Below are positions 8,228 through 22,198 of a stretch of DNA of 40,421 nt, piece after piece. The position numbers and the translations under genes are program-made. The stretch is taken from positions 1 to 40,421 of IMG/VR virus record IMGVR_UViG_3300020450_000044; one strand, written 5' to 3'. Within the stretch, counting starts at the first letter, position 1; each line of letters opens with the position of its first letter. The stretch is from a virus. Under the pieces are notes generated by a model. It was given only the letters and a program-made list of their open reading frames with translations. It had not been told where the DNA came from and did not search any database.

Positions 8228-8437
8228 GTGAGTATAACGGTCGTTGTAAGAAATAACAACTTGGAACAAGCAATGCGAGTACTTAAAAAGAAGGTACAGA
8301 AAGCAGGTATTGTTAAAGAGTTGAGACAAAGGCAATATTATGAAAAGCCTTGCGATAAAAGAAATCGTAAAAAGAAAGAAATGACTAGAGCTTGGATTAA
8401 GAAGCAGAAGAAATTAAAAGCTCAAAGAGGTTATTAA
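8228..8437 (+). CDS. rpsU: ribosomal protein bS21 (phage-encoded)
   Basis: A full-length 69-residue small-subunit ribosomal protein bS21. VVRNNNLEQAMRVLKKKV matches the conserved N-terminal helix, and YEKPCDKRNRKKKE the central S21 signature (YEKPSxKRxRxK); the tail is very basic and ends QRGY as in bacterial S21. The start is GTG, set by the perfect AAGGAGGT at 8213-8220 seven bases upstream; the ATG at 8222 is followed at once by a stop. bS21 is the last protein to join the 30S subunit and contacts the anti-Shine-Dalgarno region, so a viral copy could replace the host one and bias initiation. Viral bS21 genes are known in marine phages. The following 300 bases are non-coding and structured. 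Confidence 0.93.
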   Translation: MSITVVVRNNNLEQAMRVLKKKVQKAGIVKELRQRQYYEKPCDKRNRKKKEMTRAWIKKQKKLKAQRGY

Positions 8438-8440
8438 GGG

Positions 8441-8634
8441 TTTTACGCCGATATATATAATATGCTAGGCTGTTCGTAAGTCCTAGTTGAGGCGTAAAAG
8501 GTTGCCGCTACCAGATTTCAAAAATCAAATGCGGTGTCGCTGATGTTTGTTTGGGGTGTCCCTGTGGTTCAACATCTAAAAAAAGAACCTAAAGCGCTAG
8601 AGTTTTGGCTGTATACTCTTTAAAGAAACAGCCA
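8441..8634 (+). ncRNA. candidate structured RNA between bS21 and Hsp20 genes
   Basis: A stretch of 298 bases (8438-8735) has no ORF but much potential base pairing on the + strand. Stems I can see by eye: TTTTACGCC 8441-8449 with GGCGTAAAA 8491-8499, enclosing CTAGG 8465-8469 with CCTAG 8482-8486; CCGC 8505-8508 with GCGG 8531-8534, enclosing GATTT 8514-8518 with AAATC 8522-8526; GATGTT 8542-8547 with AACATC 8571-8576; and TGGCTGT 8606-8612 with ACAGCCA 8628-8634. GGTTC 8566-8570, in the loop of the third element, can pair with GAACC 8585-8589, which would make an H-type pseudoknot. It could be a free RNA, the 3' UTR of bS21, or a regulatory leader. No known RNA family recognised. Confidence 0.5.
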
Positions 8635-8659
8635 CTTGAATTTTATATAATAATGATTA

Positions 8660-8667
8660 TATAAATA
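8660..8667 (+). promoter_or_regulatory. T4-type late promoter box before Hsp20
   Basis: TATAAATA, the exact T4 late -10 sequence recognised by the gp55 sigma factor, in non-coding DNA 69 bases before the Hsp20 ATG. Predicted transcription starts near 8673, at the foot of the hairpin 8673-8692. Confidence 0.7.
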
Positions 8668-8672
8668 ATAAT

Positions 8673-8692
8673 GACACGCCTAATAGGGTGTC
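8673..8692 (+). other. 5'-terminal mRNA hairpin of the Hsp20 late transcript
   Basis: GACACGCC (8673-8680) pairs with GGGTGTC (8686-8692) across a TAATA loop, with one bulged G. It lies where a transcript from the late box at 8660 would begin, so it would cap the 5' end of the mRNA. Confidence 0.55.
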
Positions 8693-8735
8693 GTAATATA
8701 AAGAAAATAACTTTGCTTAATAAAGGAGGTTAGAA

Positions 8736-9176
8736 ATGACACATAAAGCACTATCTATTTTCAATCAATTAAGACCAGTATCAGTAGGATTTGATAATGT
8801 CTTTGACCATTTTGAACAAATGTTTGAAGGCGATATGTTATCAAGTATGCCTAGTTTTCCACATTACAATATTGTGAAAACTGATAAGAACAAGTACGAT
8901 ATAGAAATCGCTCTTGCTGGTTATTCAAAAAAAGACATTGAAGTAAACCTAGAAGAAGGTGTACTATCAATTAAATCTAAAAAAGAAGACAAAGAAGAAA
9001 CTAAAGATGGCGAAGTAATCCATAAAGGTATCGCTAAAAGGTATTTTTCTAAATCTTTCACAATCGCTGATGATGTAGAAGTCAAAGGTGCCGAGTTGAA
9101 AGACGGTCTTTTAAAGGTATCTATGGAAAGAATTATACCTGACCATAAGAAACCAAGAAATATTGCGATTAAGTAA
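8736..9176 (+). CDS. small heat-shock protein Hsp20 (IbpA-like)
   Basis: A 146-residue alpha-crystallin-domain chaperone. Residues about 45-140 form the domain: 'KYDIEIALAGYSKKDIEV' is the conserved N-terminal strand set, VLSIKSKK follows, and 'ELKDGLLKVSME' is the A-x-x-x-G-x-L signature region. The C-terminal IPDHKKPRNIAIK ends with the usual I-x-I-type tail. These chaperones hold unfolding proteins in the cytoplasm; marine T4-like phages often carry one. The Shine-Dalgarno AAAGGAGGT is strong and the gene has its own late box upstream and a UUCG hairpin downstream, so it looks like a single-gene transcription unit used late, perhaps in virion assembly. Confidence 0.95.
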   Translation: MTHKALSIFNQLRPVSVGFDNVFDHFEQMFEGDMLSSMPSFPHYNIVKTDKNKYDIEIALAGYSKKDIEVNLEEGVLSIKSKKEDKEETKDGEVIHKGIAKRYFSKSFTIADDVEVKGAELKDGLLKVSMERIIPDHKKPRNIAIK

Positions 9177-9187
9177 TATTAATAGAT

Positions 9188-9209
9188 AGTCTGGCCTTCG
9201 GGCCAGGCT
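9188..9209 (+). terminator. UUCG-loop hairpin after Hsp20
   Basis: AGTCTGGCC (9188-9196), a TTCG loop and GGCCAGGCT (9201-9209) form a 9-bp stem with one G-U pair and a C(UUCG)G tetraloop. There is no real U-run after it (ATTGACA follows), so it may act as an mRNA 3' stabiliser or weak terminator. The next promoter begins two bases later. Confidence 0.75.
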
Positions 9210-22121: not shown

Positions 22122-22198
22122 GGCCTTGTAGCTCAACTGGATAGAGCACTAGTCTTCTAAACTAGATGTTGCAGGTTCAAGTCCTGCCAAGGTCGCCA
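22122..22198 (+). tRNA. tRNA-Arg (anticodon UCU)
   Basis: A complete cloverleaf. Acceptor GGCCTTG (22122-22128) pairs with CAAGGTC (22188-22194, one G-U); D stem GCTC/GAGC; anticodon stem CTAGT (22149-22153)/ACTAG (22161-22165) with loop CTTCTAA, anticodon TCT at 22156-22158; T stem GCAGG/CCTGC with TTCAAGT loop; discriminator G and genome-encoded CCA (22196-22198). It reads AGA, the arginine codon that dominates this window, so it would boost phage translation. It sits directly upstream of a sigma70-like promoter and is likely co-transcribed with the helicase operon. Confidence 0.97.

Follow-up and report, generated by a model that had tools for sequence, protein, structure and literature searches.

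Short ROSE-like elements of Pseudomonas are defined by a motif opposite the Shine-Dalgarno (SD) sequence together with hairpin I (PMC3669281). The manA RNA, a structured marine phage leader, has been reported upstream of ibpA in T4-like cyanophages (PMC2864571). The bS21-Hsp20 neighborhood is already known (PMC9723584), and one survey reported these phages to be without riboswitches (PMC7029224). In the open-licence papers that we searched, we found no mention of an RNA between bS21 and Hsp20, no phage ROSE element, and no description of an RNA with the P2 hairpin and pseudoknots presented below.

The window is a virus record of 40,421 bases whose relatives are the Pelagibacter myophages Mosig and HTVC008M. 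It carries, in order, genes for a CobS-like ATPase, a 216-aa ORF, and bS21, then the gap studied here, then genes for Hsp20 and a redoxin. We read the gap as a 5' regulatory leader with two promoters that serves the phage hsp20 gene, combining a ROSE-type thermometer with P2 and pseudoknots, and put the probability of this reading at roughly 0.68. The conclusion best supported by our analysis is that the gap mainly belongs to hsp20, not bS21.

Composition of the bS21-hsp20 gap

The features of the region, from 5' to 3', are as follows.

8228 to 8437, plus strand: bS21 (rpsU-like) gene, 5' of the leader (Pfam PF01165, 2.2e-19; PHROG 21469)
8441 to 8449, plus strand: P1 5' arm, TTTTACGCC, pairing with 8491 to 8499
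8452 to 8459, plus strand: promoter-like box 1, TATATATA, enclosed by P1; sequence box conserved across loci
8465 to 8486, plus strand: P2 hairpin, CTAGGC-TGTTCGTAA-G(T)CCTAG, with loop UCRUAAG; covariation in alignment A4
8491 to 8499, plus strand: P1 3' arm, GGCGTAAAA, pairing with 8441 to 8449
8500 to 8540, plus strand: pseudoknot 1, GGT (8500-8502)/ACC (8510-8512) crossed with GCCGC (8504-8508)/GCGGT (8531-8535)
8542 to 8589, plus strand: pseudoknot 2, GATGTT (8542-8547)/AACATC (8571-8576) crossed by GGTTC (8566-8570)/GAACC (8585-8589)
8599 to 8634, plus strand: pseudoknot 3 (terminal, conserved), AGAGT (8599-8603)/ACTCT (8615-8619) crossed with TGGCTGT (8606-8612)/ACAGCCA (8628-8634)
8636 to 8667, plus strand: second promoter-like stretch, TTGAAT, 18 nt, and the T4-late-type box TATAAATA at 8660-8667; read from sequence
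8673 to 8692, plus strand: ROSE hairpin I, GACACGCC-TAATA-GGGTGTC, with bulged G8678; covariation
8709 to 8731, plus strand: ROSE hairpin II, AACTTTGCTT-AATA-AAGGAGGTT, predicted to sequester the SD; U(U/C)GCU facing the SD
8736 to 9176, plus strand: gene for the small heat shock protein Hsp20, proposed to be under control of the leader (PF00011, 9.9e-18; PHROG 432)

An earlier note on this DNA had described the gap as one candidate for an undescribed structured RNA, possibly pseudoknotted, without an ORF. The gap indeed holds no plus-strand ORF of at least 40 aa, and the structures that the note named are present at the positions it gave: its 9-bp stem is P1, its 7-bp stem is one half of pseudoknot 3, and its pseudoknot is the middle one of three H-type pseudoknots in tandem. 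The idea of a single element gave way to a composite of three parts (8441-8634, 8636-8667, and 8673-8731). Novelty holds for 8441-8634, where a search of Rfam 15 with the window and 26 related loci gave nothing credible for P2 or the pseudoknots, and fails for the 3' third, which has a subthreshold match to RF02523 and is ROSE-like, a known kind of RNA. The note had also considered the density of stems to exceed chance. Folding energy bears this out weakly, with a pseudoknot-free minimum free energy (MFE) of -71.3 for the plus strand versus -63.0 in shuffles (z = -1.77; 11 of 200 shuffles as good); the minus strand gave z = -3.06. Given that the plus-strand excess is modest, the case for structure rests on comparison across relatives, which was decisive: double changes exceeded those in shuffles for P2, ROSE, and the terminal pseudoknot, and compensatory changes in P2, ROSE, and the pseudoknots bear out a structured, pseudoknotted RNA. 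A tRNA or tmRNA in the gap was ruled out, the only such match in the window being a tRNA-Arg at 22122. A simple scan marked a terminator-like hairpin on the minus strand, CTGGCCTTCGGGCCAG, at 9191-9206, 3' of hsp20.

The comparative set came from two IMG/VR scans with Hsp20 and bS21 and one with the P2 motif, together with the isolates HTVC008M, Mosig, and Melnitz, and provided more than 100 bS21-hsp20 gaps, mostly of 220-340 nt. Side by side, these gaps share P1, an AU-rich box, P2 with UUCRUAAG, at least one H-type pseudoknot, a second promoter, and a two-hairpin leader. In most loci bS21 lies directly 5' of the element; in HTVC008M, a 111-aa ORF stands between bS21 and P2. A clade without detected bS21 (locus L170 and its relatives) has TTGACT, 17 nt, TATATATA, P2, one pseudoknot, ROSE, and hsp20 within about 200 nt, with no second promoter ahead of ROSE and hsp20. 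Mosig and contigs of the L177 type have other genes between P2 and hsp20, or hsp20 out of reach; in L177, L182, and L226, P2 and a pseudoknot lie ahead of a small ORF (MNEVRMKYNEDQIINEIKAYVGL...), with hsp20 not within reach. In Mosig (L003), a 972-bp gene of unknown function (2007-2978) separates the pseudoknot region from the ROSE leader, and the gap is enlarged in much the same way in L014. Two small ORFs annotated in Mosig, Mosig_00014 and Mosig_00015, overlie the structured RNA (L003:1595-1843); these are probably not real genes.

P1, P2, and the tandem pseudoknots

P1 was tested by exchanging its arms between loci. The helix reached -10 kcal/mol or lower in 40 of 42 non-redundant loci, versus 47% with swapped arms. 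Box 1 comes after the 5' arm, so that P1 would form only in read-through RNA. Of 138 distinct loci, 134 have a box of the form [TCA]ATA[AT]ATA in the 45 nt ahead of P2, versus 2.7% of shuffles; TTGAnn precedes this box by 16-17 nt in Melnitz and in the clade lacking detected bS21. The distance from box to hairpin would put the start of transcription near the base of P2.

The P2 loop is invariant (C, UCRUAAG) while its stem varies among AU, UA, GC, and CG pairs. Among 34 distinct sequences, 92.4% of cells were paired, with 60 double-changed cells versus 20.5 in shuffles, and 5 of the 7 stem pairs were compensated; the P2 profile comprised 110 distinct 26-nt windows. A strict pattern search found P2 once in each of five of eight genomes and not in the other three. 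In a scan of bacterial genomes, none of the matches listed lay near bS21 or hsp20, and we therefore treated these matches as chance.

Pseudoknot 1 contains an inner hairpin at 8514-8526 followed by a conserved GTCGC; it scored -16.1 kcal/mol in the window (5 of 50 shuffles as good), and its architecture recurs with different sequence in about 20 other leaders. Compensatory versions of pseudoknot 2 were seen by inspection in L005 (GTTGT/ACAAC with TGTTC/GAACA) and L096 (AGAG/CTCT with GGTTC/GAACC). Pseudoknot 3, with a U-rich loop 1 and an A-rich loop 3, scored -22.2 kcal/mol (2 of 40 shuffles as good). An H-type pseudoknot detector applied to 90 leaders returned a mean of -19.8 kcal/mol versus -12.5 in dinucleotide shuffles, and the best pseudoknot reached -18 kcal/mol or lower in 74% of leaders versus 9% of shuffles. 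An alignment of 22 terminal pseudoknots (A2) had 27 double-changed cells versus 12.4 in shuffles, with 7 pairs changed on both sides; in A2, helix 2 is off by one column in about half of the rows, which makes its count an underestimate. Among phages the sequence varies and the layout is constant: stem 1, a U-rich loop, stem 2 beginning UGG or UGC and ending UUU, and an A-rich loop. This layout would fit a major-groove triplex. A module, CACTTATAGATATTCACTAGG...CCTAGTGAATTTCTATAAGTAGGGTTGACA, recurs verbatim or nearly so in the otherwise differing leaders of L131, L134, L080, and L044, which suggests cassette exchange.

The T4-late-type box TATAAATA occurs four times in the window, in every case on the plus strand, intergenic, and followed 68-76 nt later by a start codon; strand and position are as expected of a late-type promoter, and we take it as a candidate one. 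A simple sigma-70 scan did not detect the stretch at 8636-8667. In Mosig and L014, a hybrid sequence, CCCCATATAAATA, stands ahead of ROSE.

The ROSE-like element upstream of hsp20

The two-hairpin element at 8673-8731 lies immediately 5' of hsp20, a placement that it keeps in all relatives read. Across 51 relatives, 92.8% of cells were paired, with 70 double-changed cells versus 15.7, and 6 of the 8 pairs in hairpin I were doubly changed. U(U/C)GCU stands opposite the hsp20 SD in all 51 leaders; in hairpin II of the window, TTGCT (8713-8717) faces AAGGAGG (8723-8729). By every testable feature of sequence and structure, the 3' third of the gap thus appears ROSE-like, a known kind of thermometer leader.

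A model built from the 51 leaders, R1, scored 72.5 bits at 8659-8744 in the window, which is part of its training set. Outside that set it matched before hsp20 in Syn19, ACG-2014d, AG-345-E15, the podophage HTVC115P, and Melnitz, and weakly in P-SSM2, with at most one match per phage genome. Run on 289 alphaproteobacterial genomes, R1 gave another 11 matches, mostly in genomes of 1.2-1.6 Mb that are presumably SAR11, with Hsp20 encoded just downstream at 10 of the 11 loci; some of these contigs could be phage-derived. No P2 motif was found within 600 nt at these loci, and the pseudoknots were likewise missing ahead of the host hsp20 genes that we examined. ROSE is thus shared between phages and hosts, whereas P2 and the tandem pseudoknots appear to be phage-specific. 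A sigma-32-like promoter (CTTGAA, about 13 nt, CCCCAT) lies upstream of host hsp20 in L406, L407, and L410.

The Rfam family RF02523 (ROSE_3) scored 14.6 bits in the window, 34.1 at Melnitz hsp20, and 28.6 at one host hsp20 locus, none of which reached the gathering cutoff of 43 bits. At 20°C, mean SD accessibility was 0.24 in the 51 leaders versus 0.54 for 26 other SDs. In nearest-neighbor folding, a model that omits the noncanonical pairs of ROSE, hairpin II of the window did not melt from 5 to 45°C (accessibility 0.35-0.45 throughout), and the 51 leaders showed almost no melting by 40°C. By analogy with described ROSE elements, the hsp20 leader would sense temperature.

The proposed hsp20 leader and its alternatives

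We propose that box 1 starts a long RNA, or that processing yields one, with P2 at its 5' end. The compact triplex-type H pseudoknots that follow would most likely shield the 5' region of the mRNA against RNases and keep the downstream fold insulated; this protective role, for P2 as well as the pseudoknots, is our best guess and the least certain step. The late-type promoter at 8660 would give a short RNA with a leader of about 65 nt, both starts being read from the boxes. Both RNAs would end in the ROSE-like thermometer, in which hairpin II would hide the hsp20 SD when cool and free it on warming, so that chaperone output would track temperature through translation. Given that similar ROSE elements precede hsp20 in alphaproteobacteria with genomes of SAR11-like size, phages probably captured hsp20 together with ROSE, host to phage being the direction that we infer, and replaced the host sigma-32-type promoter. 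More tentatively, and at somewhat less than an even chance, P2 and the tandem pseudoknots may form a class of RNA, so far undescribed, in marine T4-like phages. In it, the invariant UCRUAAG loop of a hairpin at the 5' end would bind a specific phage or host factor, and coupling of this hairpin to modular triplex pseudoknots and to the ROSE thermometer would let infection signal and temperature jointly set chaperone output.

We considered whether 8465-8634 could be a separate small noncoding RNA that is transcribed from box 1 and acts in trans, which would leave only 8668-8735 as the hsp20 leader. In the bS21 clade, box 1 lies just before P2 and the terminal pseudoknot abuts the second promoter, and the lack of variation in the P2 loop hints at a specific partner. 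However, no terminator-like site was seen 3' of the pseudoknot on the plus strand, and the clade without detected bS21 runs in an unbroken series from promoter to hsp20 with no second promoter. Because of that series, 8441-8634 and 8673-8731 are best read as one hsp20 leader, and we regard a separate small RNA as unlikely. The same clade bears on the idea that P1, P2, and the pseudoknots form a bS21 autoregulatory element, which the earlier note had suggested, and on that of a bS21 3' UTR. The position directly 3' of bS21 in most loci and a P1 that would form only in transcripts reading through from bS21 speak for this idea, but P2 and a pseudoknot remain before hsp20 where bS21 is undetected, and the HTVC008M ORF intervenes between bS21 and P2, making the idea improbable.

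The pseudoknot array might be a decoy mimicking type III (ToxI-like) antitoxin RNAs, which have the same H-type layout, loop 1 being rich in U and loop 3 in A; pseudo-ToxI repeats have been documented in phages (PMC3475682). In ToxI, however, a unit of 36 nt is repeated, whereas the present pseudoknots vary in sequence within and between phages, and no tandem repeats were found at 8300-8800, so that we rejected a ToxI-type array and consider a decoy very improbable. Chance structure or a DNA-level signal (an origin, or the packaging signal that the earlier note had also raised) draws on the modest plus-strand MFE excess; it is hardly credible against compensatory changes unexpected by chance, RNA-type covariation, promoter boxes, and a single internal copy per genome.

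If the ROSE part of the hsp20 leader works, a chaperone gene is fitted with an RNA thermometer in cyanophages and in phages that infect some of the most abundant bacteria of the ocean, and cultures (HTVC008M or Mosig on HTCC1062, Melnitz on H5P1) could be used to test temperature control of infection. The leader with its pseudoknots is an RNA structure that 138 distinct P2 contexts support well and that has no Rfam match.

Among known systems, manA (RF01745) was rejected as the identity of the gap RNA, with no match in the window or three other long contigs and a different structure; in P-SSM2, hsp20 follows manA at a distance of about 450 nt, and in Mosig the two are about 100 kb apart. ToxI and pseudo-ToxI arrays are likewise phage series of triplex-type H pseudoknots, whereas those described here are heterogeneous nonrepeats before hsp20 with no toxin gene known nearby. 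The glutamine riboswitch (RF01739) of pelagiphages and Melnitz is another structured RNA carried by phages of streamlined marine hosts, but it is a separate element and resembles neither P2 nor the pseudoknots. Two pelagiphage contigs carry glutamine riboswitches above the Rfam cutoff just downstream of hsp20 (L052:1734-1785 and L138:1071-1119). Compared with ROSE_3 (RF02523) and the short ROSE-like ibpA thermometers of Pseudomonas (PMC3669281), the present element is phage-borne and subthreshold in Rfam, with phage-type boxes in place of the sigma-32 promoter, and it has in common with them the pair of hairpins immediately ahead of a small heat shock gene, the SD-blocking U(U/C)GCU, the bulged G in hairpin I along with the closing pairs of that hairpin, and the spacing to the AUG.
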